A stretch of DNA of 11,994 nt from Chloroflexota bacterium (lineage in GTDB: Bacteria > Chloroflexota > Dehalococcoidia > SZUA-161 > SpSt-899): contig QLUL01000020.1 of assembly GCA_018725425.1 (NCBI GenBank), positions 1 through 11,994 on the forward strand, written 5' to 3'. The position numbers and the translations under genes were made by a program. How positions within the stretch are numbered: position 1 is the stretch's first letter; each line of letters begins with the position of its first letter. The notes under the pieces were generated by a model. That model searched no databases. It was not told where the DNA came from and saw only the letters and a program-made list of their open reading frames with translations. Shown one piece after another: positions 1 to 11,994 of this stretch.

Positions 1-1285
1 ACTGCCCCAGCAACTCCTTGGCATCATCGATGTCATTTCTCTCCATCAGGCAGCTCAGCAGTTTGTAACGAATGCCCTGGTTATCACTGGGATTCAGTCG
101 GAGCATATCCCTATAGTGTTCCATGGCAGCCTCAAATTCACCGAGAAAGTAGAGGCAATCAGCCAGCCCTTCGCGAGCCCGCATGTAAGGTCGCGTCTCG
201 ATTAGGCCCCAGAAATGACCCGCCTCGTTGGCAAGTACCTCAGGCCCCAAAGCACGCTGACCTGCTTCCACACCTCGCTGATACCAATTTCGTGCCTCTT
301 CAGGGATTTCTGCGGCCTCTTCCGCCAAAAGTACATAGGCATCGGCACAATCAGAGCATATTTCGAGGGATTCCATCGCCAGACGTATTCGCTCCTTTTT
401 CTCTGCGGTTTCCAATGCCTGGTAGATAAGCTCCTGGGCTTGCTCCAGAGGAGTCTCCGGGACCAATCTTGGAATACGACCAATTCCGGAAAACTGTTGA
501 AGATAGGCATTGATCTCGTCAACAGACGCGAAGTCCTGCTTTGCCATCAGCTTTTGAATAGCACGTAAGTTACGCTCCATCAATCTCCGATCAGGAGGCG
601 AGATAGGTTTGCTGGCTGACCCACAGCATTTCTTATATTTCTCCCCACTCCCGCAGGGACAGGTGTCATTTCTTCCGACCTTGGCCAGGTTCCCTGATTC
701 ATCCTCCGCAGCAAGAACTTTGAGTATCCCGTTGACCTCATCCATATCAAACGCCTTTGGGTCGAACCATCCGCCGAGCCATTCCATCATTTCCTCGTGC
801 TCTTCGTGACCAGGGTCACCGATGATTTCCAGGAGGTCGGCATAGCCCCAGATCCCACCGCAGTCTTCGGGCGGGCAAGCACGTCTACCCGCAAGACAGA
901 CGGGATAGCGTATCCCTGGCTCCGTTGGCAGAATTCTCTCAATCAAGATCTCGTGTTCCCAACTATCGCCGAAGTCGTACTCGTAGATGAACCTGGTTTT
1001 CTCCCGTGGTGCTACCTTACTCAGCTCGGTCTTTCGAGAGTTCTTCATCTTCAGACCATAGAAGTCGCCTTCTGGATCAGGCTCGCCGAACTCCGTGCCT
1101 CCAACCCTGAATTGGTACAAGTGGGCATTGGCCCAGCCCATGGCCACCTGCAGAATCAGGTGTAGTTTGTGAAGGCTGATGTTGCCAGGCACTTGAAGTC
1201 GCCTCCAGATCGGTGGTTTACTGCCCTTGAGCGTCACTTTGAGCTGATAGACCACATCATTCCTTGGTTGTAGTGTGGTTGCCAT
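1..1285 (-). CDS. pRiA4b ORF-3-like / SEC-C / TPR protein (3' end outside window)
   Basis: The minus-strand frame is open from the ATG at 1285 to the window edge, giving 428 residues of an unfinished protein. Residues about 10-190 resemble the plasmid pRiA4b ORF-3-like domain, including its typical block YDFGDSWEHEI and the IWRR motif near the N-terminus. Residues 206-222 are a SEC-C zinc-binding motif (NDTCPCGSGEKYKKCCG; cysteines 209, 211, 220, 221). From about residue 260 onwards the protein is helical with TPR-like units, for example the one around FEAAMEHYRDMLRLNPSDN. The start is set by a strong GGAGGA Shine-Dalgarno sequence about 8 bases upstream. It is divergent from everything else in the window. 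The biochemical role of this family is not established; SEC-C motifs bind zinc and often mediate protein contacts, and TPRs are protein-binding repeats. I see no catalytic signature, signal peptide or membrane segment. Confidence 0.85.
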   Translation of the reverse strand, partial: MATTLQPRNDVVYQLKVTLKGSKPPIWRRLQVPGNISLHKLHLILQVAMGWANAHLYQFRVGGTEFGEPDPEGDFYGLKMKNSRKTELSKVAPREKTRFIYEYDFGDSWEHEILIERILPTEPGIRYPVCLAGRRACPPEDCGGIWGYADLLEIIGDPGHEEHEEMMEWLGGWFDPKAFDMDEVNGILKVLAAEDESGNLAKVGRNDTCPCGSGEKYKKCCGSASKPISPPDRRLMERNLRAIQKLMAKQDFASVDEINAYLQQFSGIGRIPRLVPETPLEQAQELIYQALETAEKKERIRLAMESLEICSDCADAYVLLAEEAAEIPEEARNWYQRGVEAGQRALGPEVLANEAGHFWGLIETRPYMRAREGLADCLYFLGEFEAAMEHYRDMLRLNPSDNQGIRYKLLSCLMERNDIDDAKELLGQ

Positions 1286-1318
1286 CACTGTCTCCTCCTT
1301 GCTGGCTTGCTTGGGACA

Positions 1319-1412
1319 CCGGATATCATTAAAGGGTTAGTGCACTCCGCCTCAGATTCAGCGCCAGGCATAATGCTCTATGTCAATCGTTGCTAATGAA
1401 CCCTTTATCCGG
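1319..1412. repeat. Long imperfect inverted repeat in the leader of the SEC-C/TPR gene
   Basis: The right arm AACCCTTTATCCGG (1399-1412) is the reverse complement of CCGGATA plus AAGGGTT, which appear in the left arm (1319-1338) separated by six extra bases, TCATTA. The inner nine bases (1330-1338 and 1399-1407) pair without interruption. In the predicted minus-strand leader this could fold as a long-range hairpin of about 60 nt loop. It could equally be the remnant of a small inverted-repeat element. There is no T-run to make it an intrinsic terminator. Confidence 0.35.
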
Positions 1413-1477
1413 GCATCCTCTGCGATCAATCACATGGATAGATTATACAGCAAGAATGCGGGGTAAACAATCTGGCG
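1357..1477. repeat. 121-bp dispersed direct repeat, copy A
   Basis: Aligns without gaps to 2744-2864 with 10 differences by my count in 121 bases (about 92% identity). The copies are in the same orientation with a fixed offset of 1387 bp. Copy A contains the candidate promoter and part of the leader of the minus-strand SEC-C/TPR gene. It has no convincing open reading frame. A nine-base patch ACACCGGAT lies just to the left of both copies, at slightly different distances (1316-1324 and 2728-2736), so the original homology may have been longer. Confidence 0.85.
1442..1470 (-). promoter_or_regulatory. Candidate promoter for the SEC-C/TPR gene
   Basis: On the minus strand there is a perfect -10 hexamer TATAAT (1442-1447) with a weak -35 TTGTTT (1465-1470) at the ideal 17-bp spacing. 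Transcription would start near 1435 and leave a leader of about 150 nt before the ATG at 1285. The element lies inside a repeated sequence, and the second copy keeps the same TATAAT (2829-2834) with TTGTTC at 2852-2857. Assigned by motif matching only. Confidence 0.4.
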
Positions 1478-1608
1478 AATTGTTCACGCCGATCTGATGA
1501 GTCCACTCAACACGTGATCCAAACTGCACCTTTGGCAGTTATTAGGAAAAACTTTCATTAGGTGCTAAAATACCAGAAAGGGGTCTTTTCGGGTAAAGGG
1601 GGGATAAG

Positions 1609-1647
1609 GAGTAGGTTTATAGGTTTAAAGGTTATCTAAGCCTACTC
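1609..1647 (+). other. Intergenic hairpin with tandem TAGGTTTA
   Basis: Arms 1609-1619 (GAGTAGGTTTA) and 1637-1647 (TAAGCCTACTC) pair over 11 positions with one G-T wobble, leaving a 17-nt loop. The left arm and loop contain two abutting copies of TAGGTTTA (1612-1627). It is not followed by a T-tract, so it is not a typical terminator. Apart from this hairpin and a short AACTGC/GCAGTT dyad at 1522-1540, I see nothing else in the 1478-1696 stretch. Confidence 0.35.
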
Positions 1648-1696
1648 GCCAGGACCGCGGAGATAAGACCATGCCTAATCCATAATAGGTGGTGAT

Positions 1697-1807
1697 GTGG
1701 AAGTAAAGGAGCTCGAGCAACACATAGATGAGCTTGCCGCCCGAATCTGAGGGCTGACCACAGAGGAACTAGCTGAAATTAAGAGCTCTCTGGAAGAGAT
1801 GACTTGA
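1697..1807 (+). pseudogene. Decayed small ORF with in-frame TGA
   Basis: A GTG codon at 1697, preceded by AGGTGGTG that could serve as a ribosome binding site, opens a frame reading VEVKELEQHIDELAARI, a TGA at 1748-1750, then GLTTEELAEIKSSLEEMT and a second TGA at 1805-1807. Both halves have a charged, helix-like composition and stay in one frame, which suggests a former small protein of about 36 residues interrupted by a nonsense mutation. TGA is used as the normal stop of neighbouring genes, so recoding as Trp is unlikely. I recognise no family; chance is a real alternative. Confidence 0.3.
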
Positions 1808-1832
1808 CGGTTGAACACAAATAGTATACGAT
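1804..1832 (+). promoter_or_regulatory. Candidate promoter of the MNT/HEPN module
   Basis: TTGACG (1804-1809, 5 of 6 matches to the -35 consensus) and TACGAT (1827-1832, 4 of 6 matches to -10) are separated by 17 bp. Transcription would start around 1839, immediately upstream of the AAAGGAAG ribosome binding site of the gene beginning at 1861. A perfect inverted repeat covers both the spacer and the start region, which supports a regulated promoter. Confidence 0.45.
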
Positions 1833-1852
1833 AGAACATAAATTGTGTTCAA
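1811..1852. promoter_or_regulatory. Perfect 10-bp inverted repeat, candidate autoregulatory operator
   Basis: TTGAACACAA (1811-1820) and its exact reverse complement TTGTGTTCAA (1843-1852) are separated by 22 bp, so the half-sites lie 32 bp apart, about three helical turns. The left arm is between the -35 and -10 hexamers and the right arm is just downstream of the predicted start and directly before the ribosome binding site. Occupancy of these sites should block transcription of the downstream gene, whose N-terminus is a winged helix. As RNA the same arms could instead form a hairpin with a 22-nt loop. Confidence 0.55.
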
Positions 1853-1860
1853 AGGAAGCG

Positions 1861-2430
1861 ATGCTGGAATACTTCATAACCTCAAAAACAAAGCGCCTTC
1901 TCCTCAAACTGTTTCTCACCAATCCAGAGAGGCAATTTTATACCAGGGAGATAACCAGGCTTACTGGTGAACCGCTAAACGCGGTAAGAAGGGAACTCGG
2001 TCATCTGGAAAAGGCAGGATTGTTGAAATCACACCAGGCGGGAAACCTGAAATACTTTGGGGTTGTAAAGGAGTTCCCCTTCTATTTAGAGCTGAAGAAG
2101 ATTGTCTACTCCACTATAGGGCTTGGTGACTACTTAAGAAACAGACTCAAGGATTCAGACCAGATAGAGCTTGCCTTCATTTACGGTTCGGTAGCTAAAA
2201 ACCAAGAAAGAGAAAAAAGCGACATCGACCTTTTTGTGGTGGGGGAAATTGAGGAGGAAGAGATCCACAGGCTGGTGTCTGACATTGAAAGAGAAACTGG
2301 CCGGGAAATCAATTATACCTTGATGACGAAAAGGGAGTTCGAGGAAAGAAGTGAGAGAGGCGAACCATTTATCAAACGAATTGAGGGGGAAGAGAAACTG
2401 ATACTTAAAGGTAACCTTGATGTCTATTGA
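1861..2430 (+). CDS. Winged-helix + MNT-type nucleotidyltransferase domain protein
   Basis: 189 residues. Residues 1-75 form an ArsR/MarR-like winged helix (ITRLTGEPLNAVRRELGHLEKAGLL is the recognition region, followed by a wing ending at YFGVV). Residues about 95-175 are a minimal nucleotidyltransferase domain with G109-S110 and S120-D121-I122-D123, the GSx9SDxD signature. A third acidic catalytic residue is not evident in the following strand (EINYTLMT), as I recall for this subfamily. Such proteins pair with HEPN proteins in toxin-antitoxin-like modules, where the nucleotidyltransferase neutralises the HEPN RNase, in studied cases by AMPylation. ATG 1861 is chosen because it follows AAAGGAAG at good spacing; a TTG at 1843 would start inside the operator. 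The stop overlaps the next gene by 11 bp, implying coupled translation. The attached DNA-binding domain suggests autoregulation. Confidence 0.8.
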   Translation: MLEYFITSKTKRLLLKLFLTNPERQFYTREITRLTGEPLNAVRRELGHLEKAGLLKSHQAGNLKYFGVVKEFPFYLELKKIVYSTIGLGDYLRNRLKDSDQIELAFIYGSVAKNQEREKSDIDLFVVGEIEEEEIHRLVSDIERETGREINYTLMTKREFEERSERGEPFIKRIEGEEKLILKGNLDVY

Positions 2431-2644
2431 AGAACTCGTCAAAGCAGGCAGTATCCGTCCATTCAGAGCAACGCAGGACGAGGTTGACAGAGCTGTTGAG
2501 ATTGCTCGGCGCGATTTAGCCTTAGCGGGCAGAATGTTTGGGGAAAGCGATGAGGTGGAGCTGGTGACTGAACAAGAGGCAAAGGAATTACTCAAAAGGG
2601 AGAGAGAATTTCTATCTTACGTAGAGAGTAAGCTAAAGGAGTGA
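2420..2644 (+). CDS. Truncated HEPN-type partner with the core missing
   Basis: 74 residues from ATG 2420, overlapping the upstream nucleotidyltransferase gene by 11 bp. Residues 1-40 (IEELVKAGSIRPFRA, then EIARRDLALAGRMF) match the N-terminal helix typical of HEPN proteins encoded beside MNT genes. Residues 46-74 (VELVTEQEAKELLKREREF) match the usual C-terminal helix. Family members are generally about 130-150 residues. The middle that normally carries the DWAFTIAYNAML-like helix and the R-x4-6-H RNase motif is absent here, the two ends being joined near residues 42-47 (2543-2560) without a frame break. The product is probably a catalytically dead remnant or a small partner-binding protein. 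The comparison rests on my memory of the family consensus. Confidence 0.6.
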   Translation: MSIEELVKAGSIRPFRATQDEVDRAVEIARRDLALAGRMFGESDEVELVTEQEAKELLKREREFLSYVESKLKE

Positions 2645-2743
2645 TAAGTGTAGCGATGCATTATTCGTTTCCCCCTCAGATAGACCAGGTAAGAGTCGTA
2701 GTATATTGCCTCTATGGTTACCTGGATACACCGGATGACTTTC

Positions 2744-2864
2744 TTCAGCGCCAGGCGTAATGCTCTATGTCAATCGTTACTAGTGAAACCTTTATCCGGC
2801 CATCCTCTGCGATCAATCACCTGGATAGATTATACAGTAAGAATGCGGGGTGAACAAGCTGACG
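2744..2864. repeat. 121-bp dispersed direct repeat, copy B
   Basis: Same orientation as 1357-1477 and about 92% identical, with substitutions only. It retains the minus-strand TATAAT (2829-2834), but no gene follows it on that strand except antisense to the HEPN/MNT genes. It may be the leftover promoter-leader of a lost paralogue of the SEC-C/TPR gene, or a mobile or duplicated intergenic element. Confidence 0.85.
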
Positions 2865-3112: not shown

Positions 3113-3859
3113 ATGGCTACGAAAAAATCAGGCCCCCTCTATATCCAAGATTTTCTGTGGGACGAAGGTATCCAGGCTGTGAAGGACAGCTTGAGATTCC
3201 GCTCATTTGAAGAATTCTGCCGGCATCTTGAGACATCTCTCCCACAGAACTCGGAGTCTACTAGACATCGATACGCCCGAAATGTAATTAGGTGGTTTTT
3301 TCCGGAACGATCCATTGATGGGCTGGCAGCGCAGGCTTGGTGCTACTATCAAGATGAGGGTCTGCTAAAGGAGATTATGCGCTATCAGTTTCTTTCTGTC
3401 GAGCCTGTTGTAGCGCAGTTTATCACGGAGTATGTATTACCTGCAGAGCCAGGAACGACTCTTCGTTCGCCCATTCTTGATGAATTTGTGCAGTACAAAT
3501 ATGGAGCATCGAATAAGAAGGTCAAACAGCGACTCGGCAACACGATAGATCAACTTGGATTTGCCCAGCGTAATAAGGGCAACAGAATAATTGTCCAGCT
3601 TCCTGCTGCCAGGACCGCTCTCTTCTTGCTTACGCATCTCCTTTTTGCCCCGACTCCCGCGCTGGTCAGCTTAAAAGAAATACTAGAAAATCCCTTCTGG
3701 AAGTATCTGGGCTTCCGACATGCTGATGGAGTGCGTAAGGCTCTCAAGGAAGCAGCAGCAAATGATCTCGTGGCAAAGTATGTCATCGCTGACGAGCTGG
3801 AGCAGATAACTACCAAATACTCATTCAAGGAAATCCTGGGACAGAGGCTCTATCTATGA
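3113..3859 (+). CDS. brxA: BrxA-like (DUF1819-like) BREX accessory protein
   Basis: 248 residues, soluble and mostly helical, with no signal peptide or membrane segment. Residues 51-66 are strongly basic/aromatic (RHRYARNVIRWFFPER), and the C-terminal third (about 165-245) looks like a winged-helix fold ending in VIADELEQITTKYSF. BrxA proteins of known BREX systems are small helical DNA-binding proteins that open the operon just before brxB, as here. The name comes mainly from size, composition and position; the sequence match I can judge by eye is weak. It begins 93 bases after the candidate -10 element and has a poor Shine-Dalgarno sequence (AATAAGAA). Its TGA overlaps the next ATG in an ATGA, so translation of the second gene is probably coupled. 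An unrelated operon-specific protein remains possible. Confidence 0.5.
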   Translation: MATKKSGPLYIQDFLWDEGIQAVKDSLRFRSFEEFCRHLETSLPQNSESTRHRYARNVIRWFFPERSIDGLAAQAWCYYQDEGLLKEIMRYQFLSVEPVVAQFITEYVLPAEPGTTLRSPILDEFVQYKYGASNKKVKQRLGNTIDQLGFAQRNKGNRIIVQLPAARTALFLLTHLLFAPTPALVSLKEILENPFWKYLGFRHADGVRKALKEAAANDLVAKYVIADELEQITTKYSFKEILGQRLYL

Positions 3860-4370
3860 GACTGTTGGAGTTCGAGGAATTAATCGCTACTTTCTCTACT
3901 AAACCGAGGCCAGGCCGGCATGTTTATCTATGGCACGGCAAAGAAACAGAACTACGAGCCAAACTCCCCCCAGAATTACCCGATCTCTCGATATTGTTGA
4001 CCTGGCAGCATCCACACAGTCCCCCGCTTCAGCTCCCTTAGAGGTAGCGGAGCAATTAAGGAAGCTCATTGTTCAAGAACTGCAAAATCTCCGCACCAAT
4101 CTTACTCCGCCGATAATTCTCGTAGTCACAGGCTGTCACCTTTTGGCCAGGTATCGCACAGGACTTGGGATGTTCTTCCAGCATTATGTGAGCGATGGCG
4201 CTATGGCTATCTTTTGTGTTGCTGAGCAAGACCCCTCGATGCCTAGCCTACCCAGTTATGTGGAATTCGAGCCCCAGGCAACATCTCAATCTCTAGCAAG
4301 CCTTGTTGGAAGACAAAACCTCATTGAGGAGAACAGCCATGAAGCAAGCACAACGAACTCCTATAGATAA
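3856..4370 (+). CDS. brxB: BrxB-like (DUF1788-like) gene with apparent -1 frameshift
   Basis: The reading frame starting at ATG 3856 encodes MRLLEFEELIATF then HVYLWHGKETELRAKLPP and stops at 4039-4041. The protein-like sequence continues in the -1 frame (VDLAAS, then PPIILVVTGCHLLARYR) up to the stop at 4368-4370. Read through a slip near 3966-3972 the product is 171 residues, close to the roughly 200 of BrxB. The block ILVVTGCHLLARYRTGLGMFFQHY resembles the DUF1788 segment in which a TG-containing strand precedes a helix and a hydrophobic strand (AMAIFCVAEQDP here). BrxB is a small core factor of BREX whose exact activity is unknown. The gene overlaps the brxA-like gene by 4 bp and the brxC-like gene by 32 bp. 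Whether the break is a sequencing error, a mutation or programmed cannot be told from the sequence alone. Confidence 0.6.
3966..3972 (+). other. Slippery C-run at the brxB-like frameshift
   Basis: The bases C CCC CCA, read in the frame of ATG 3856, have the X XXY YYZ form of a -1 slippery heptamer. Slipping here joins ...ELRAKLPP directly to RITRSLDIVDLAAS in the second frame. A homopolymer of six C is also a typical place for sequencing indels and for phase variation. No strong hairpin is evident in the following 10 bases. Confidence 0.35.
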
Positions 4371-7300
4371 GCTTATAGCAGTCAAGGAGGAGCGCCCCGA
4401 GACTACTCTTTCCCTGGCTGTAGCCTGTAAGAATCCCATTAAAACCGTGAGTACCTATGTATTCACCGACTCTATTCGTGGGTATTTCTCTACCATCTTG
4501 GAAAGCGTAGCTACAGGTCGTGGTCAGGGGTTCTGGGTGCCAGCCGAATGGGGATATGGCAAGACTCACTTCCTTGCCACTATTGCCTCTCTACTCAGCG
4601 ATACTAGCCAGGAACTCTGGTCGAGCGTTCAAGATCGTGAGATCACCAACTATCATCACCGCCTGCAAAACGCCAAACTCTTCCCTGTCATCCTTAGTCT
4701 GCGTGGCGAAGGGCCTGTGGATATAAGTGGAGGTCGAAGCCTGCTGCAGATTATAGAGAAGCAGATTGGGGAAACACTAGACAAGTGTCACTTGCAGGAT
4801 AGAGTTGTAGTTACCTCCGCAGAGGAAATCTTCGCCTGGTTTAATCAGCTTCCCGCAATGTTGAAGGGGTCTATTTCGTCCTATGTCAGGCAGCAAATGG
4901 GAGTTGATGCTGCTGAATATGCTAAGGAAGCAGGTCGAGAGGCATTAGCCAGGCTCATTCGGCAGTTTTGTATTGAAAATACCATCAGTCCTCAGATTTC
5001 CGTTAGCACGAAGGAGCGGTTCTCACACATTTATGACCAGCTAACAGATGCAGGATACAATGGGCTGCTTTTTGTAATTGACGAATTTGCCTTCTGGCAG
5101 GACAGTCATCCTGAAGGCTCACCTGAATATGCTCATGATGAAGAGGTTCTGGAAACGCTTGCCTTTGTGCTCCCAAAGGAGCTTGGGCTGAGAATCTATA
5201 CCCTCGTTGCTTCTCAAAAGCCTGTTCCTGTCAAGCTCAGAGGCAGTCATGCCGGCGACCGTTTCATTGACTTTCCCCTTTTAGGGGGACGAAGTGAGAG
5301 AGATTACGACCTCATCGTCTCCCGGCGAGTTCGCGATGTATTATCCGAGATGACTCCTGAAATAAACCAGTATTACGACTATTATTTCCATAACTTCGAG
5401 TTCATGAAGGGGATGGATGAGGATGCATTTCGTGCTATATTCCCCTTCCAACCCCGCTGCTTTGAAGTGTTGCGCCACATCACCGCTAGAGGATTGGCTA
5501 CCACGCGAATAGGAATTAACGTTCTCTATGATGTTATCGACCCTCATGCCACTCATAATGAAGATCCAAACAGTGAGAATAATATTTTGGCCAAGGACAG
5601 GCTGATAACGGTTGGTGATCTTCTATTAAGCGATAATCTTATTCACGGACTCAGGGAGGTGCCAGACTACCGCCTTGCTTATCAGGCCTATGCCACTGCC
5701 CTGAATACCTTGCCTCTCTTAGACCTGGATGAAGATCAGGCAAGCGTGGCCCAGCGCGTTGTCAAGACCCTTTTCCTGTGGCACTTAGCGTATCTGGATT
5801 CTCCTCGCCAGATGTCCCTCCAGGATTTAACACAGGCTACTCTCACCACCGAAGATATTCTCAAACCTGAAGATACGGTAAATCTTATCCTGGCGAAACT
5901 GCGTGATCTACCACAGATTTCTTATACCAAAGAAAAGGGTGCTAGCTTCGTAGTTCAAGTTACCGGTCTCTCAGCACCACAAAGGTTTAATGAGATCAAG
6001 CAGCGCATTACCGAGCAACACCACATTCAGAAAAAGTGGAGGGAGAGCCTCTACTCAGCCCCTTCTGAGATGCTTGGGGAGTCCACGCTATTTGCTGACC
6101 TTCTTCCGCAGCAGTTGAAATCAATAAGGATAGAGAACCGCAGGCTTGAGTATTCAGGAGAGGTTATTCTCAGCGATACCTGGCGTCCTGAACTTGGCCA
6201 GCCGTTATACAAGGAGGATCATCATTTCAAGATTGTTATCCTCATGGAGAATACTGATGCGGGTGGGATTGCCATTGAGGACGAGCGTATCGCGGTCTGC
6301 ATTCCCAACGGGCTCTCTGAACTTGCCCATGATGCTGTTAGGGACTATATGGCGATTTGTGATATGGAGGAAATATATCGGCATGAGAGAGGCAGCGATG
6401 CCGAGCAAATTCGGGAATGGGTCAGGGGTAAGAAGCCAGAGGTGATAAGGGCACTTATCAGTAGTCAGCCCAAGCAGTATCAGTCGGGCAAAATCTGCAC
6501 CAGGAGTGCTCTAGCCATTGAGCCTAAGGAGGTATTCTCCCAGCCGAGTAACGAGCGGCGTTTTGCCCTTATCGCCAATGCACTCCTTGACAATGCCTAT
6601 ACAGCTCTCCCCCGGACCCTGGATTCTAGAGCGTTCAAAAAGACCCTCTCTTCTACCGATGTCGGCAAGGTCTTTAATGGATTCTTCCGTGGCGCTGCTT
6701 CAGCACAGGACACAAGTGCTCTGGACAACTTTGCCCTGGGTCTTCATTTAGCAGCGACTGACAATCGGCGCAAGTTTGCTCCAGCAGCAAATGCCCCTGT
6801 TTTTGACTATCTTAAGGGAAAGCTGGGGGAGAACGAAGGTCATCTACCCACATGGCAGGTGTATCGAGATTTGAGCAACATTCCCTATGGTCTTCCCTTT
6901 CCTCTCATCAGCCTGTATATCCTTTGCTTCACCCGCTATGGTATGCCTGCTATTGATCTCTATCTCAAGCCAAATCATCCCCTTATTCTGAGATCAGGCA
7001 GTAAGCCTCTTCATAACAAGCTTACCTCAGCCACCGTTCCAGAACTCGAGTGGAAGACTGGACTAGATAAGTATTTTGATGCCATCTCTCTCAGCACTGG
7101 CCCTACTTGGAATGAGGTGGTTCCTTTTGCCAGGGTGCTCAGGCCGGAATTGAAAACCACCGCTGACCCTGTAGAGATAGAGGGGCAAGCACAGTTGCTC
7201 CAAGAAGCCCTTGGATCTCTACACGCAATGGCAACGCAGATAGATAGCAGCATAAAGCTTTTGTCCGCCAGATTGGAGGACACCGTCGACGCTGGAGAAC

Positions 7301-8292
7301 ACGACGCAGTGTCTCGAATCACTGATATTGTGCAAGCGCCTAACTATGCCCAGTTTTACCAAGCGGTGCAGGATAGATATACCCAACCTGATGCCTTCGC
7401 TGCCGATATCTCAATTTACCGCCGCTGGGAAAACCTCTCCAAATCAGCAGCAGAGATCCTTGCTGTGAAGAATTACCTTAATGCTGCAAACTTGCGTGAC
7501 GGCGACCTTGAGCTAAGAACTGACCTCCTCTCCCTTAGGGGTCAACTGAACCTGAAATCATTCCTGAACAGCCCTTCTCTCTGGCCCAGTGTGAAAGCAG
7601 GGTTTAATGAATTTAAGCGGCGTTACCGCAATATCTATCAAGCCCACCACCGTGATTATTACAAGAAGGTGCAGGAACTACAGCAACAACTGGAGGAGCT
7701 GAAGCCAAAACTGGAAGCCCTAAATAAGCTCAACGAAGTTACAGAGCTAGGCGAGTCACTAGGCACCGATCTGCCCCAGCACTATCAGAGTTTGTTGCCA
7801 AGACTGGGTTCGTGCGATGTTAGTATCGTGACTGAGGTGTCAGTAGAAAATGACCCCGCTTGCTCTTCCTGCCGCCTCGCCCTAACTCAGGAGCCACCCG
7901 CAGAAGAGGTACAACACTTGAGTAGAGATCTGGGGAAGGCACTGAAAGAGCAATTGAGGCGACTGAGCTCAGAAGCGGTGAAAAGGGTTTTGGAACGGAG
8001 CAACGAAGACAAGGTGACTAAGCTGCTACAAATTGTCCATGCCAGTGAGCTTTCTTCGCTGGTTAACGTCATTGATGATGAAGTAATTAAGTTCGTTAGG
8101 ATTCTGCTCCTGGAGAGCAATATCCAAACAGTGGCACAGCCAGTTTTGGTAAGGCTGGCGGATAAGTACCCTGTGATTCAAGAAGATGGGATAGACGAGG
8201 CGGTAGCCGAGTTCAGGCGCTTGCTGCAAGAAGCTTTCGAGCAAGCCAAACGGCAGAACCCGGAGAAGAGGATTCAGCTTAGCCTGAGGTAG
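4339..8292 (+). CDS. brxC: BrxC/PglY-like large P-loop ATPase of BREX
   Basis: 1317 residues from ATG 4339, preferred over upstream TTG 4303 because GAGGAG sits 7 bases before it. Residues 69-76 (AEWGYGKT) are a Walker A motif, and LLFVIDEF around D248-E249 is Walker B. The segment TYVFTDSIRGYF before the P-loop and GFWVPAEWGYGKTHF are typical of the BrxC/PglY (DUF6079-like) family. Residues about 1105-1135 are a coiled coil, followed by a lone CxxC (C1175, C1178) in the family's C-terminal zone and another helical stretch. BrxC/PglY is a large ATPase required for BREX phage exclusion and works with the methyltransferase and PglZ, probably in a DNA-bound complex; the exact reaction is unsettled. 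The gene overlaps the brxB-like gene by 32 bp and ends 7 bp before the methyltransferase start. The length agrees with the family (about 1,200-1,300 residues). Confidence 0.8.
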   Translation: MKQAQRTPIDKLIAVKEERPETTLSLAVACKNPIKTVSTYVFTDSIRGYFSTILESVATGRGQGFWVPAEWGYGKTHFLATIASLLSDTSQELWSSVQDREITNYHHRLQNAKLFPVILSLRGEGPVDISGGRSLLQIIEKQIGETLDKCHLQDRVVVTSAEEIFAWFNQLPAMLKGSISSYVRQQMGVDAAEYAKEAGREALARLIRQFCIENTISPQISVSTKERFSHIYDQLTDAGYNGLLFVIDEFAFWQDSHPEGSPEYAHDEEVLETLAFVLPKELGLRIYTLVASQKPVPVKLRGSHAGDRFIDFPLLGGRSERDYDLIVSRRVRDVLSEMTPEINQYYDYYFHNFEFMKGMDEDAFRAIFPFQPRCFEVLRHITARGLATTRIGINVLYDVIDPHATHNEDPNSENNILAKDRLITVGDLLLSDNLIHGLREVPDYRLAYQAYATALNTLPLLDLDEDQASVAQRVVKTLFLWHLAYLDSPRQMSLQDLTQATLTTEDILKPEDTVNLILAKLRDLPQISYTKEKGASFVVQVTGLSAPQRFNEIKQRITEQHHIQKKWRESLYSAPSEMLGESTLFADLLPQQLKSIRIENRRLEYSGEVILSDTWRPELGQPLYKEDHHFKIVILMENTDAGGIAIEDERIAVCIPNGLSELAHDAVRDYMAICDMEEIYRHERGSDAEQIREWVRGKKPEVIRALISSQPKQYQSGKICTRSALAIEPKEVFSQPSNERRFALIANALLDNAYTALPRTLDSRAFKKTLSSTDVGKVFNGFFRGAASAQDTSALDNFALGLHLAATDNRRKFAPAANAPVFDYLKGKLGENEGHLPTWQVYRDLSNIPYGLPFPLISLYILCFTRYGMPAIDLYLKPNHPLILRSGSKPLHNKLTSATVPELEWKTGLDKYFDAISLSTGPTWNEVVPFARVLRPELKTTADPVEIEGQAQLLQEALGSLHAMATQIDSSIKLLSARLEDTVDAGEHDAVSRITDIVQAPNYAQFYQAVQDRYTQPDAFAADISIYRRWENLSKSAAEILAVKNYLNAANLRDGDLELRTDLLSLRGQLNLKSFLNSPSLWPSVKAGFNEFKRRYRNIYQAHHRDYYKKVQELQQQLEELKPKLEALNKLNEVTELGESLGTDLPQHYQSLLPRLGSCDVSIVTEVSVENDPACSSCRLALTQEPPAEEVQHLSRDLGKALKEQLRRLSSEAVKRVLERSNEDKVTKLLQIVHASELSSLVNVIDDEVIKFVRILLLESNIQTVAQPVLVRLADKYPVIQEDGIDEAVAEFRRLLQEAFEQAKRQNPEKRIQLSLR

Positions 8293-8299
8293 CGACACC

Positions 8300-10714
8300 A
8301 TGACTATAGTTGAGACTGAGAATAAACCGGGGCTCGCCGAATTCATCCGCGACTACGGCAAGCCATATGACCCTGAGACAGATGACTACAATGTGCCCCC
8401 ATTCTGCAAGAGCTTCGACCAGGCCTCAAAGTCGTCCAAAATCTACAATATGCACATGTATTGGGTGAAGCAGGATCCCTATGTGGTTAAGGAGTTCATC
8501 GAGCATTATACTCAGCCTGGCGACATTGTCCTGGATGCCTTCTGCGGCTCAGGAATGACCGGGGTAGCCGCCCTTATGGTAGGGAGGCACGCCATCTTAT
8601 TCGACATCTCCCCTGCCTGTATCCACATCACCCGTAATTACACCACTCCTATTGAGCCCCAACTCCTGCAACAGGCATATGAGGAGTTAATGGCAAGGGC
8701 AGAGCCGGAGATTCGTCCCCTCTATCGCACCAGGTGCCACCACTGCAACAACCCTGAGGCTCAAATCGCCAATACCATCCTCTCCGATGTTTACCGCTGC
8801 CCTCGGTGTGGAATTGGGGTTCTTTTTGCCGGTGGAGGGCGATGGGAGGGAATGAAGAGGGGCGAGAAGATAGCCAAGATTCGCTGTGATAATTGCCGCT
8901 ATGAGTTCACCAAGGCGAAGGTAAGTTTTGTGAGAATAGAGCCTGTCGAAATCAGGGTTGATTGCCCCAAATGCAAGATTAAAGGTGAGGCAAAAGCCAA
9001 ACCGCTGGATGAAGATGATTGGCGACGCTATATCGAGATTGAGGGAGGCGAGCAGTTCATCAACGAGCCAGGAAGCAAGGTTCTGGGGCAGATGAAACAA
9101 GAGCTTGGGCTGAAGGAAATACCTCCGAAAGAGTTCCCCTACTGGTATCCCAGGGATGTGAAGTTTTTTGGGCCGGAGCCAAGGCGCAATTTGAAGCGGG
9201 GCATTACTCATCCCTATCAGATGTTCTCACGGCGGAACCTTATTGCCCTGTCGGTGCTGTGGGAATATGTGAATGAGGTTGAGGATGATCAAGCCAAAAG
9301 TTATTTAAGGCTACTTTTCTCCAGCATTATTTACATGGTTAATTTACAATACAGGTGGCGCATTAGTGGGAAAGGCGGGATTCGGATGGGAACTTTGTAT
9401 ATCCCCGCGATAATTCAAGACATGAATGCACTCGGCTCATTTGCAGGCAAATATAGTGATCTCGCTAAGGCTGTTAATGAGATAAACCTTTTCAAAAGCT
9501 TTGTTACTCATATAGCGAGACAACAAGACGCTAGAGATTTATATCCTATCCCTGATAACTCTGTTGACTACGCCTTCTATGACCCTCCTTATGGCTCTAA
9601 CATAAACTATAGTGAACTCAACATTATGTGGGAGGCTTGGCTGGGCGAGTTCACCCCGGTAGAGCAGGAAATCATCGAAAACCAGTATCAAGGCAAAACG
9701 AGGGAAACCTATGAACAGATGATGACTACTGCCCTCAAAGAAGCCTACCGTGTTCTCAAGCCCGGACGGTGGCTTTCGCTGATTTACAGCTACACCGACC
9801 CGACCATGTTTCGGAGTGTGCAACGAATGGCCGCTCAGGCGGGCTTCATTGAACCAGGTGAAGTGAGACATATAAATTCAACCTCTAAGACGAAATCGCA
9901 ATTGGATTCCGACAAGACTCAGCAGCGCCTTCTGGTGATAAACTTTAAGAAGCCCAAAGAGAGTGTGGCGAGGAAGGAACTGGAGAAACCAGATATTGAG
10001 TACCGCGTGATAACCGTTATCCAGGAGTTTCTCACCAGGCAGGGTGGTCAACCCCGTGACTACATCTATGACGAGGTGATTAAAAGGTTCTTACCCACCG
10101 TTGAAATAGCAAAGTTCAACCTTGACGAGATATTGGAGAATTTCTTCCGCAAGGTCGGTGATAAGTGGTATGCTCCGGGAACCTTGCTGGCACGCCAGCC
10201 CAAATTCGCCAAGACACCCCAGTTGAGAATGGCACTGGATAAAGGAGACGCTGGGGAAGAGACAGTATTGCGCCTGCAGGAGTTTCTCCGCAAATATGGC
10301 ACGGTGCCCCTTCACGAGCTAAGGGAATACTATCTCAGGGAGATTTCTATTGAATGGCAGGAAATCGTAGATTTCAACAAAGCTATTGAGGGATTCACTG
10401 TCAAGGAAGGTAAGGTTCGCCTTCCCACTGCCGAGGAGCAACAACACAAGCAAGATATGGCTGTCAGCTATCGAAAAGCTCAAATCCATCGCTACCTCAA
10501 CGGTGCGCTCACTAAGAAACTCACCAATGAGGAACTTTGCCAATGGGTAGAATTCTGCTATCGGAATGAAATGTATGAAGAAGCTACCAGGCTCTTCTCC
10601 GGGATTGATGATAGTTCCGTAGACAGGGAACTCTGGAGGAGAACCAGGCGCATTGCTGAGGCATGTCAGTTGTTGAAAGTGTCAGAAGAGGGGAGCGAAT
10701 ACAATGCGCCGTAA
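8300..10714 (+). CDS. pglX: BREX DNA adenine methyltransferase (PglX/PglXI-like) with zinc ribbons
   Basis: 804 residues. Motif I is D79-AFCGSG and binds S-adenosylmethionine; catalytic motif IV is D428-P-P-Y431 followed by GSNINYSE, which points to N6-adenine methylation; AYRVLKPGRWLSLIY follows. Between them four CxxC pairs (C146/149, 167/170, 196/199, 222/225) predict two zinc ribbons, and a long helical block probably includes the target-recognition region. After the catalytic domain come two similar winged-helix-like segments (near VIQEFLTRQGGQPRDYIYDE and RLQEFLRKYGTVPLHELREY), then a helical TPR-like end. In BREX this enzyme marks host DNA and is needed for exclusion. It is much shorter than the roughly 1,200-residue type 1 PglX and closer to the COG0863/COG1743-type enzymes of other subtypes. 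GAGGT at 8286-8290 serves as ribosome binding site; the stop overlaps the next gene by 11 bp. Confidence 0.8.
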   Translation: MTIVETENKPGLAEFIRDYGKPYDPETDDYNVPPFCKSFDQASKSSKIYNMHMYWVKQDPYVVKEFIEHYTQPGDIVLDAFCGSGMTGVAALMVGRHAILFDISPACIHITRNYTTPIEPQLLQQAYEELMARAEPEIRPLYRTRCHHCNNPEAQIANTILSDVYRCPRCGIGVLFAGGGRWEGMKRGEKIAKIRCDNCRYEFTKAKVSFVRIEPVEIRVDCPKCKIKGEAKAKPLDEDDWRRYIEIEGGEQFINEPGSKVLGQMKQELGLKEIPPKEFPYWYPRDVKFFGPEPRRNLKRGITHPYQMFSRRNLIALSVLWEYVNEVEDDQAKSYLRLLFSSIIYMVNLQYRWRISGKGGIRMGTLYIPAIIQDMNALGSFAGKYSDLAKAVNEINLFKSFVTHIARQQDARDLYPIPDNSVDYAFYDPPYGSNINYSELNIMWEAWLGEFTPVEQEIIENQYQGKTRETYEQMMTTALKEAYRVLKPGRWLSLIYSYTDPTMFRSVQRMAAQAGFIEPGEVRHINSTSKTKSQLDSDKTQQRLLVINFKKPKESVARKELEKPDIEYRVITVIQEFLTRQGGQPRDYIYDEVIKRFLPTVEIAKFNLDEILENFFRKVGDKWYAPGTLLARQPKFAKTPQLRMALDKGDAGEETVLRLQEFLRKYGTVPLHELREYYLREISIEWQEIVDFNKAIEGFTVKEGKVRLPTAEEQQHKQDMAVSYRKAQIHRYLNGALTKKLTNEELCQWVEFCYRNEMYEEATRLFSGIDDSSVDRELWRRTRRIAEACQLLKVSEEGSEYNAP

Positions 10715-11994
10715 AGCTATGCCAAACAATGTCCAGGAGTACTTTCAGCAATTCCTTGCCGGACTTCCCCAGGCAAGCCGACTGGTTGTTGCTCTTGACC
10801 CAGAAAGGCTTCTAAATCTTAATGAGAAAATCATTGATCCCAAAGGGAAGAGGTGGGCTGTATTTCATTACTTTGAGAATGATTTTGGCTTCCGAGTCAA
10901 GTATTCTCGGAGGCCAGACGACCCTAACTTTCCCCATATTGTTTGGGTGACCTTCCCTCGCTTTGGAGCTAAAAGCAAAATAAATCTGAGTTTCATCTCA
11001 GATATTCTGGAAGGAGCAGATAGAATCGAGGACTTCAGTTTGCGCGGCATTTTGAGCCAGCTCATTCCTCGTGAAAAGTGGAATCCTGAAGCGTTGGCAA
11101 AGTATGCCACAGCTATCGCTTCCAACCTCTCGCAGTTTGTGGTCGCTCACGATCAACTCCGCCACTATGTGCCCAAAGATGCTCCCTTAAGCATTCATCA
11201 TGTTCGCATTCTGACATTAATATGCCTCCATCCAGGGTTGTCCGTTCAAGCTCTGATGTTTGAAGAGTTATCAGCCTCCGAAGTGCTCGTCCACTATCTA
11301 GGTCTCGCCTGGTCTGGCAACTGGGATAACCAGTCCTCCGCTATTCTTAAGGAGTTAGCTGGTGAAAGCCCTAAGATTGACACCAGGTCTATCTCCCCCT
11401 GGCTTATTCCGCATCCTCAAACTTTGGCCCTCTATGTTTACTTGCGGCAATCCTTGGAAAGATACCATGTGCCCAATCCTGCTAACCAGTTACGAGGGCT
11501 GCAGATGCTGGAGTTTGCCCCCGAAGAGCTAGAACAACAAGTATCAGCGGTAATCGCTCACCTGGGAAAGAGCCCGAATCTACAGTCAAAAATGATCAGG
11601 CTAGCTGAAGATGGGCTATCTGCTGAGGACTTGGACAGGTTGATTCAACTTGTGTCACCACAATCTACAGTGATAGCGCAAGTTCTGGCTAGAGAATCTT
11701 CACCAGCTATAGCGTATGGCTTAGCTATTCACTTCCTGCAGAGTGCTTTGGCTGCAAAGGCTCTCAGTGACATCATCCTTAGCTCACATGTTGGCGCTGA
11801 CCTTAGTTCCAGGTCCAGGCTTTCGGAGGCTGCTTATACATCTCGGGCTGGAGAAGTATTCGCCCTAATATCGGAGCTAGCTGACATTGAAGAAGTCCTC
11901 AGCCATCCCCCTGAGCCAACTGCTGACTTGAATGCCTTGCTCGATTGGTACATTCAAAGCAGAGCCTTCAGATTGGAATTGGCTCATGCTAAAG
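10704..11994 (+). CDS. pglZ: PglZ-like protein, N-terminal 430 residues (cut by window end)
   Basis: Frame open from ATG 10704 to the last base, following an AGAGGGGAG Shine-Dalgarno sequence at 8-base spacing. The start lies inside the end of the methyltransferase gene, so it is coupled. The N-terminal region contains blocks I recognise from PglZ proteins: RLVVALDPERLL at residues 26-37, then SFISDILEGADRIEDFSLRG, a basic LIPREKW, and VPNPANQLRGLQMLEF. The alkaline-phosphatase-like core that defines PglZ, with its metal-binding Asp/His residues, would lie beyond the window, so the catalytic state cannot be judged. PglZ is the one component found in nearly all BREX systems. Context (directly after a brxC-like ATPase and a pglX-like methyltransferase) raises confidence. 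A different helical protein in the same operon is the alternative. Confidence 0.65.
   Translation, partial: MRRKAMPNNVQEYFQQFLAGLPQASRLVVALDPERLLNLNEKIIDPKGKRWAVFHYFENDFGFRVKYSRRPDDPNFPHIVWVTFPRFGAKSKINLSFISDILEGADRIEDFSLRGILSQLIPREKWNPEALAKYATAIASNLSQFVVAHDQLRHYVPKDAPLSIHHVRILTLICLHPGLSVQALMFEELSASEVLVHYLGLAWSGNWDNQSSAILKELAGESPKIDTRSISPWLIPHPQTLALYVYLRQSLERYHVPNPANQLRGLQMLEFAPEELEQQVSAVIAHLGKSPNLQSKMIRLAEDGLSAEDLDRLIQLVSPQSTVIAQVLARESSPAIAYGLAIHFLQSALAAKALSDIILSSHVGADLSSRSRLSEAAYTSRAGEVFALISELADIEEVLSHPPEPTADLNALLDWYIQSRAFRLELAHAK

Follow-up and report, generated by a model that had tools for sequence, protein, structure and literature searches.

The closest described systems are those of BREX types 1, 3 and 4. 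In its sections on the individual components, a 2026 survey assigns BrxL to types 1 and 4 alone and calls it 'entirely absent' from types 2 and 3, heads its section on the BrxXI methyltransferase 'Type-3 specific', proposes that BrxHI or BrxHII fills the place of BrxL in types 2 and 3, and finds BrxHII in 77% of type 3 taxa (PMC12839542). Because BrxXI is specific to type 3 in these sections and BrxL is absent from type 3, they list no pairing of a BrxXI-class methyltransferase with BrxL. In another paper, the passages that name pglXI, brxHII and brxL concern a cyanobacterial type 1 system with extra genes, which is not the kind of system presented here (PMC9716671). A search of titles and abstracts in the open-access literature, with subscription papers mostly outside its range, found neither a BREX type 7 nor such a combination.

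Two of the components have described activities. BrxL is a chambered, MCM-like ring that binds DNA and depends on ATP; of its point mutations, only loss of the ATPase site fully abolishes restriction (PMC10164562). In type 1, PglZ is a metal-dependent nuclease; it has a part in defense but none in methylation, and it binds BrxB (PMC12205998).

Results

Gene order and continuation of the operon

The window, which is the whole stretch of DNA analyzed, is an entire contig (C113) of 11,994 bases from a 1.52-Mb draft genome, whose bin has 342 contigs and is 81% complete. An earlier note on this DNA had described a BREX operon with a type 1-like gene order at positions 3113–11994. We confirm this order: five plus-strand genes, abutting or overlapping, follow one another as brxA-brxB-brxC-methyltransferase-pglZ (Table 1), and the order is repeated at two other loci, L011 and L111. 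The pglZ gene is cut by the contig's 3′ end, and a second contig of the same genome, C82 (3,222 bases, locus L002), opens mid-pglZ and then carries brxL. We take C82 to be the continuation of the window because the two ends have 7 bases in common in the same reading frame, because the window's part of PglZ aligns to residues 18–441 and the C82 part to residues 440–888 of the full-length, 888-residue L011 PglZ, and because the single PglZ-domain match and the single BrxL match of a genome-wide profile search both lie on C82.

The sequence beyond position 11994 therefore holds the rest of pglZ and then brxL, not a helicase gene. The earlier note had also seen no helicase between the methyltransferase gene and pglZ, where type 3 would have one; a BrxHII profile has no match in the window, L011 or L111. 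Since BrxHII occurs in just 77% of type 3 taxa, its absence alone is weak evidence against type 3.

Table 1. Features of the operon in the window and on contig C82
Feature	Position	Strand	Description
brxA-like	3113..3859	+	248 aa; DNA-binding BREX component
brxB-like	3856..4370	+	split between two frames; L011 (161 aa) and L111 (158 aa) have unbroken copies
brxC	4339..8292	+	AAA+ ATPase, 1317 aa from ATG 4339; frame open from TTG 4303
N6-adenine DNA methyltransferase, BrxXI/PglXI class	8300..10714	+	804 aa; PF01555, PADLOC PglXI
Two four-cysteine (zinc-ribbon-like) motifs in methyltransferase	8735..8974	+	residues 146-225
pglZ, 5′ part	10704..11994	+	430 aa; rest at C82 (L002) 1-1404
brxL	C82 (L002) 1432-2859		475 aa; PF13337, TIGR02688; downstream of pglZ

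BrxA, BrxB and BrxC

Pfam and NCBIfam models leave BrxA, BrxB and BrxC unnamed in both the window and L011. We assigned BrxA by its fold and by a chain of profile links to PF08849. This fold also fits SspB (DUF4007); a one-sequence DUF4007 profile found nothing in the window, L011 or L111. A protein search with BrxA returned 14 matches, its own included, with MAGs named Methanosarcinales and Halobacteria among the sources. The BrxB-like protein agrees with BrxB in position, length and AAA+-like fold; profile comparison with type 1 BrxB, type 3 BrxF and the Halorarius protein gave no sequence link, and the comparison of its model with solved structures, where the listed matches include no BrxB structure, carries no evidential weight. 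In the window, homology to intact BrxB lies in two frames (25 bits at 3793–4038 and 62 bits at 3903–4367). This brxB is possibly impaired by a true mutation, or mis-assembled.

The window's BrxC matches the PADLOC BrxC model (E 3.3e-7), and profile-profile comparison links it to the BrxC of Halorarius and of types 1 and 4, type 1 being the best-scoring named type (3.5e-16 over 728 columns). The likely start is ATG 4339, with GGAG upstream. Walker A and Walker B are present; in L011, Walker A has R in place of S/T. No Pfam DUF499 match was found at E 0.1 in the BrxC of the window or L011, and comparing L011 BrxC with solved structures returned nothing useful. Against plasmids, L011 BrxC matches a single record (Halorarius, E 0.01), versus 320 records for BrxL.

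Placement of BrxC, PglZ and BrxL

The locus belongs to BREX by the presence of both BrxC and PglZ. In the BrxC tree, the window, L011, the Halorarius locus (L022) and locus L104 of genome G183 form one branch (97/96), and types 1, 3 and 4 each form a clade without lineage rows (100/99, 100/100 and 100/98). This tree is a rerun in which L104 was added and the BrxC of L023, L050, L070, L079, L083 and L088 was omitted; row L079_C had been dropped by the program from the earlier set. AU tests do not reject a grouping of the whole lineage with type 1 (p 0.40) or with type 3 (p 0.51), and the lineage already stands with type 4 in the tree, at 53/6. Earlier rejections of the window and L011 with types 1, 3 and 4 (p 0.003, 0.012 and 0.006) are discounted, as those sets omitted Halorarius and G183.

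The last gene of the window is a PglZ by profile search: its C82 part matches PF08665 (7.4e-12), the active-site columns D, T, D, DH and H are invariant in 40 of 40 rows, and about 130 residues extend beyond the catalytic domain. We scored four PglZ proteins (C82, its 3′ part only; L011; L111; L046) with the NCBIfam BREX PglZ models for types 1A, 1B, 2, 3, 4, 5 and 6, whose cut-offs are 140–400. None exceeds 62.5 bits with any model. The maxima are 29.7 bits for types 1A and 1B (cut-offs 270 and 400), 60.6 for type 3 (250), 62.5 for type 2 (200) and 22.7 for type 5 (250), with no match reported by the type 6 model. The same proteins reach at most 68 bits with PorX. Control proteins pass their cut-offs (type 3, 666 over 250; type 1A, 945 over 270).

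Each type forms one clade in the PglZ tree (type 3, 99/100; 1A, 94/87; 1B, 100/100; 4, 89/89). C82, L011 and L111 group at 98/97; L046, Halorarius and G183 are placed close to this group and to type 3, without support, and the four rows accompanied by BrxL form a single group at 50/29 only. Grouping with type 3 is weak (85/60 in the 40-row tree; whole lineage with type 3 at 77/94), the later tree having 28 chosen rows. For the whole lineage, AU tests reject neither standing alone (p 0.31) nor grouping with type 1 (p 0.33) or type 4 (p 0.19); tests against type 3 with narrower sets gave p 0.062 for the window and L011 and p 0.128 for four rows. A plasmid search with L011 PglZ matched 5 records: Halorarius, three annotated as type 3 and one unannotated Prevotella.

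The C82 BrxL is identified by PF13337 (5e-116) and TIGR02688 (470 bits, cut-off 329), and L011 BrxL matches the solved BrxL 8emc (E 5.7e-93). The motifs GPRETGKT and FDE occur in 4 of 4 lineage rows; the strict pattern misses two control BrxL. In a tree of 25 chosen rows, made after one of 38, these four rows group at 100/100, outside the type 1 (100/99) and type 4 (100/100) clades. An AU test of the lineage's BrxL with type 4 (p 0.023) is void, its set having omitted L059, which falls inside type 4.

We thus looked for a placement of BrxC or PglZ inside a named subtype and found none, with types 1, 3 and 4 compared in the trees and types 2, 5 and 6 through the NCBIfam PglZ models. The suggestion that the combination may be an undescribed subtype gains support from BrxC, which joins none of the type 1, 3 and 4 clades, and from PglZ, which scores far below all seven NCBIfam cut-offs.

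A BrxXI-class methyltransferase with eight insert cysteines

The methyltransferase had been judged to resemble those of other subtypes, and this judgment stands: it is of the BrxXI class, as in type 3, though outside the type 3 clade. It matches PF01555 (6.3e-20) and PADLOC PglXI (347 bits); BrxXI profiles match the enzymes of the window and L011, and type 1 BrxX profiles match neither at E 1e-3. In the methyltransferase tree, the window's clade (100/100) stands beside the type 3 BrxXI clade (100/99) as a clade of its own. The insert cysteines are at residues 146, 149, 167, 170, 196, 199, 222 and 225. The 15 rows that make up the window's clade together with Halorarius all retain the eight, and type 3 enzymes have the inner four only (11 of 11 rows). 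Eight cysteines are not unique to the window's clade, because the last one is also kept in 3 of 7 other methyltransferases of the phylum, some of which exceed four cysteines.

Of 4832 matches in a protein search with the window's enzyme, the 120 listed include 58 clusters at 40–100% identity, the remainder of the 120 being proteins of 1186–1352 residues at about 30% identity; among the matches listed, Candidatus Aerophobetes and Thermodesulfobacteriota are sources of relatives, one each.

The methyltransferase family varies between loci beside one BrxL clade, an exchange of METHYLTRANSFERASE. Judged from the sequences, the self-marking methyltransferase is exchangeable, with different families at different loci and the same BrxL clade. 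The small proteins encoded between the methyltransferase and pglZ end in a helical stretch, some 55 residues long, that aligns with the methyltransferase C-terminus, and a methyltransferase profile matches the L011 small protein at 47 bits. Speculatively, this common stretch may be a shared docking piece.

Recurrence and rarity

The order brxA-brxB-brxC-methyltransferase-pglZ-brxL occurs at three loci: across the contig joint in the window and C82, and with inserted genes in L011 and L111. Locus L011 (JAOZPP010000010.1, MAG: bacterium isolate GMC4.metabat2.244) holds the genes on one 61-kb contig, with a nucleotidyltransferase gene before the methyltransferase and an Mrr_N protein gene after it. 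Its identity to the window is 49% for BrxA, 40% for BrxC, 63% for the methyltransferase and 76% for BrxL; the two parts of PglZ have 39% and 50%. Locus L111 (G448:C101, same class as the window) has the order on one contig, with two small proteins between the methyltransferase and pglZ; identities are 34% for BrxA, 35% for BrxC, 35% for the C82 part of PglZ and 69% for BrxL. Its methyltransferase is spread over three frames, the N-terminal piece having 55% identity to the methyltransferase of L110 and 43% to that of the window. L110, on another G448 contig, is a partial brxC-methyltransferase-pglZ locus with an open 806-residue methyltransferase frame; the methyltransferases of L110 and L111 were left out of the tree.

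A further locus, L046 (genome G191, same phylum), begins with a methyltransferase truncated at the end of the contig and goes on to two small proteins, pglZ and brxL; its BrxL has 65% identity to the window's. Its methyltransferase was rejected as a member of the window's clade and groups with 1280-residue XRE-fused enzymes (100/99). Because that enzyme belongs to another family, calling G191 a carrier of the same system rests on BrxL, gene order and weak PglZ similarity.

Within the phylum, a sample of 400 genomes had BrxL matches in 40 of them, at 46 places. Inspection of 42 of these gave 20 of type 1, 12 of type 4, 8 without another BREX profile nearby and 2 of the present kind (the window with C82, and L046); the other four are weak or fragmentary (G153, G082, G232 and G196). 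The class sample, of 393 genomes, includes 11 with BrxL: 2 of the present kind (G000 and G448), 7 of type 1 and 2 without other matches (G313 and G577). The methyltransferase matched 18 genomes of the phylum sample at 1e-40, with the window's clade only in its own genome, and 5 genomes of the class sample, which added G448 with a more distant enzyme. Pattern scans found no methyltransferase relative among 27 matches in viral contigs and 1 among 41 in GTDB contigs; the GTDB scan gives no prevalence estimate, as it relies on two short patterns. The variant is rare and recurrent, and apparently undescribed.

Comparison with named systems

Type 1 systems, such as those of L. plantarum (L034) and Rhodococcus (L028), share with the lineage the A-B-C-X-Z-L order, the C-terminal extension of PglZ, and BrxL. 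The lineage differs from them in a methyltransferase of the BrxXI class, not BrxX, in the placement of BrxC and BrxL, neither of which joins its type 1 clade, and in PglZ far below the type 1 cut-offs. Its BrxL is also about 200 residues shorter than plasmid type 1 BrxL, though some type 1 BrxL in the phylum are short as well. Type 3 systems (Roseomonas, L025; Roseicitreum, L023; Enterococcus, L026) have a like methyltransferase, with motif I, a nested cysteine insert and DPPY/DPPF, and type 3 is weakly the nearest for PglZ. Unlike them, the lineage lacks BrxHII and the brxF-first order, has BrxL, carries eight insert cysteines in the window's methyltransferase rather than four, and is left out of the type 3 clade in each of the BrxC, PglZ and methyltransferase trees. 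The likeness to type 4 (Pseudanabaena, L033) lies in a short BrxL without a Lon-like or HKD C-terminus and in the BrxA fold that matches SspB (DUF4007), whereas the lineage has a methyltransferase where type 4 has a PAPS reductase/DUF4007 modification module, and does not fall in the type 4 clade of the BrxL, BrxC or PglZ tree.

The Halorarius halobius plasmid (L022, NZ_CP101162.1) shares the BrxC branch, BrxA and a BrxXI-class methyltransferase with eight cysteines. Its order is methyltransferase-A-B-C-Z; no BrxL is annotated, and neither a BrxL nor a BrxHII profile matches. The annotation of this locus names BrxA-family and PglZ-domain proteins only. As described in the survey's section on DUF499 systems, BR type 3 also combines PglZ and a BrxB-like protein with a BrxXI-class methyltransferase, which in some cases has two 4C motifs (PMC12839542); it has a DUF499 ATPase, a helicase and a stand-alone PglZ, whereas the window's lineage has a long PglZ and BrxL, without a DUF499 match or a helicase.

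Discussion

Observed directly are the six genes, the way they are ordered in three loci, the family or fold of each, and the conservation of active-site residues in PglZ. Our reading, to which we give a probability of about 0.7, is that these genes probably form a BREX system with the order brxA-brxB-brxC-methyltransferase-pglZ-brxL, in a lineage outside the named types sampled. By analogy with described systems, BrxA, BrxB, BrxC and PglZ would help the methyltransferase to place N6-methyladenine on a host site. A BrxC-centered complex of BrxA, BrxB, BrxC and PglZ would recognize unmarked phage DNA, which PglZ may nick, and BrxL, as an MCM-like ring, would close on the DNA and block replication. 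BrxL would then take the slot that the BrxHII helicase holds in type 3.

Because grouping with a named type is not rejected for BrxC or PglZ, the lineage could be called a deep branch of type 1, 3 or 4. A type 3 system, derived or deep-branching, that had exchanged the BrxHII helicase for brxL and had its genes reordered would account for a methyltransferase nearest in class to BrxXI, for the weak grouping of PglZ with type 3, for the three type 3 annotations among the five plasmid records and for a BrxC sisterhood that is not rejected. We consider it unlikely, since well-supported type 3 clades of BrxC, PglZ and methyltransferase omit the lineage rows, the window's methyltransferase has twice the insert cysteines, PglZ carries residues past its catalytic domain that are said to be missing from type 3 PglZ, the gene order is unlike brxF-brxC-XI-HII-pglZ-brxA, and BrxHII is unmatched at three loci. 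We hold it very unlikely that the locus is a deep-branching type 1 in which a BrxXI-class enzyme took the place of PglX. Its gene order is identical to type 1, PglZ has the type 1 extension, type 1 is the best named type in the BrxC profile-profile comparison, and sisterhood with type 1 BrxC is not rejected; against this stand type 1 clades of BrxC and BrxL without lineage rows, PglZ scores at a small fraction of the 1A and 1B cut-offs, and the one plasmid record for L011 BrxC beside hundreds for BrxL.

The operon lies over two contigs of an incomplete bin, and unrelated halves might have been joined by assembly or binning. Such a chimera is barely credible, given the in-frame overlap, the tiling halves of PglZ and the repetition of the order on single contigs in L011 and G448. 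There is a modest chance that the window genome holds a decayed BREX remnant that no longer works, which would be compatible with the preferred reading of a lineage outside the named types: brxB is split over two frames, yet the other frames are open across 8 kb with active-site motifs present, and faulty assembly can produce a lone frame change in a single draft contig.

We see an even chance that the core of BrxA, BrxB, BrxC and PglZ is inherited together in a further major BREX lineage, found in bacteria and haloarchaea, with interchangeable methyltransferase and motor slots. The interchangeable-slot reading refers to at least two methyltransferase families beside one BrxL clade, and to a motor that is BrxL here, with neither BrxL nor BrxHII found in Halorarius. 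The lineage would widen BREX detection, because Pfam and NCBIfam models left three of its components unnamed. A BrxXI-class methyltransferase paired with BrxL, where the methyltransferase changes while BrxL stays, is a natural swap experiment that lets one ask which BREX parts read DNA and which stop phage. If the slots are truly interchangeable, motif recognition and the DNA motor would be plug-in parts of one core machine.

Gene content and sequence irregularities of related BREX operons

The window's BREX operon is closely preceded by an HTH-nucleotidyltransferase and its small partner, both on the forward strand, which match PDC-M05A/B, a candidate defence pair in PADLOC. A different nucleotidyltransferase gene (9273-9923) lies within the BREX operon itself on JAOZPP010000010.1 (L011). 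Small proteins also occupy the interval between the methyltransferase and pglZ genes at L011, at L111 (genome G448) and at L046 (genome G191), and we found that these proteins have a helical segment at the C-terminus, roughly 55 residues long, in common with the methyltransferase.

The methyltransferase of L111 (9957-12608) is spread over three frames, and in L110, a second partial copy in G448, the methyltransferase frame is open across 806 residues. The Walker A motif of the window's BrxC reads GYGKTH, whereas that of the L011 BrxC (5111-8944) reads GAGKRH, with R in the usual S/T position.

At two related loci, L053 in G015 and L104 in G183, a UPF0758_N (RadC-type) domain stands in frame ahead of a BrxA-like protein; its cut-off of 27.1 bits is passed by L104 only, where the BrxC and PglZ genes follow, and L053 falls below it. 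In the Enterococcus faecium type 3 operon, a hypothetical protein occupies the place of brxA, and no BrxHII is found among the annotated genes. A profile search of the haloarchaeal L022 operon returned no match to BrxL or BrxHII, and in the BrxC tree its BrxC clusters with that of the window.

Features at the window and related loci
Feature	Locus	Position	Strand	Detail
HTH-nucleotidyltransferase	window	1843-2430	+	PDC-M05A/B, 1.2e-51
Small partner	window	2417-2644	+	PDC-M05A/B, 1e-5
Small protein, MTase-pglZ interval	L011	12392-13144		Mrr_N, PF14338, 2.9e-17
Two small proteins, MTase-pglZ interval	L111	12503-13147; 13160-13780		
Two small proteins, MTase-pglZ interval	L046	8276-8773; 7507-8262 (-)		
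UPF0758_N/BrxA-like protein	L053 (G015)	1007-2197	-	24.0 bits
UPF0758_N/BrxA-like protein	L104 (G183)	6506-7819	+	33.2 bits
Type 3 BREX, brxF-brxC-MTase-pglZ-hypothetical	L026	5495-14706		Enterococcus faecium plasmid
BREX-like operon, MTase-BrxA-BrxB?-BrxC-PglZ-metallophosphoesterase	L022	13953-25189		Halorarius halobius plasmid
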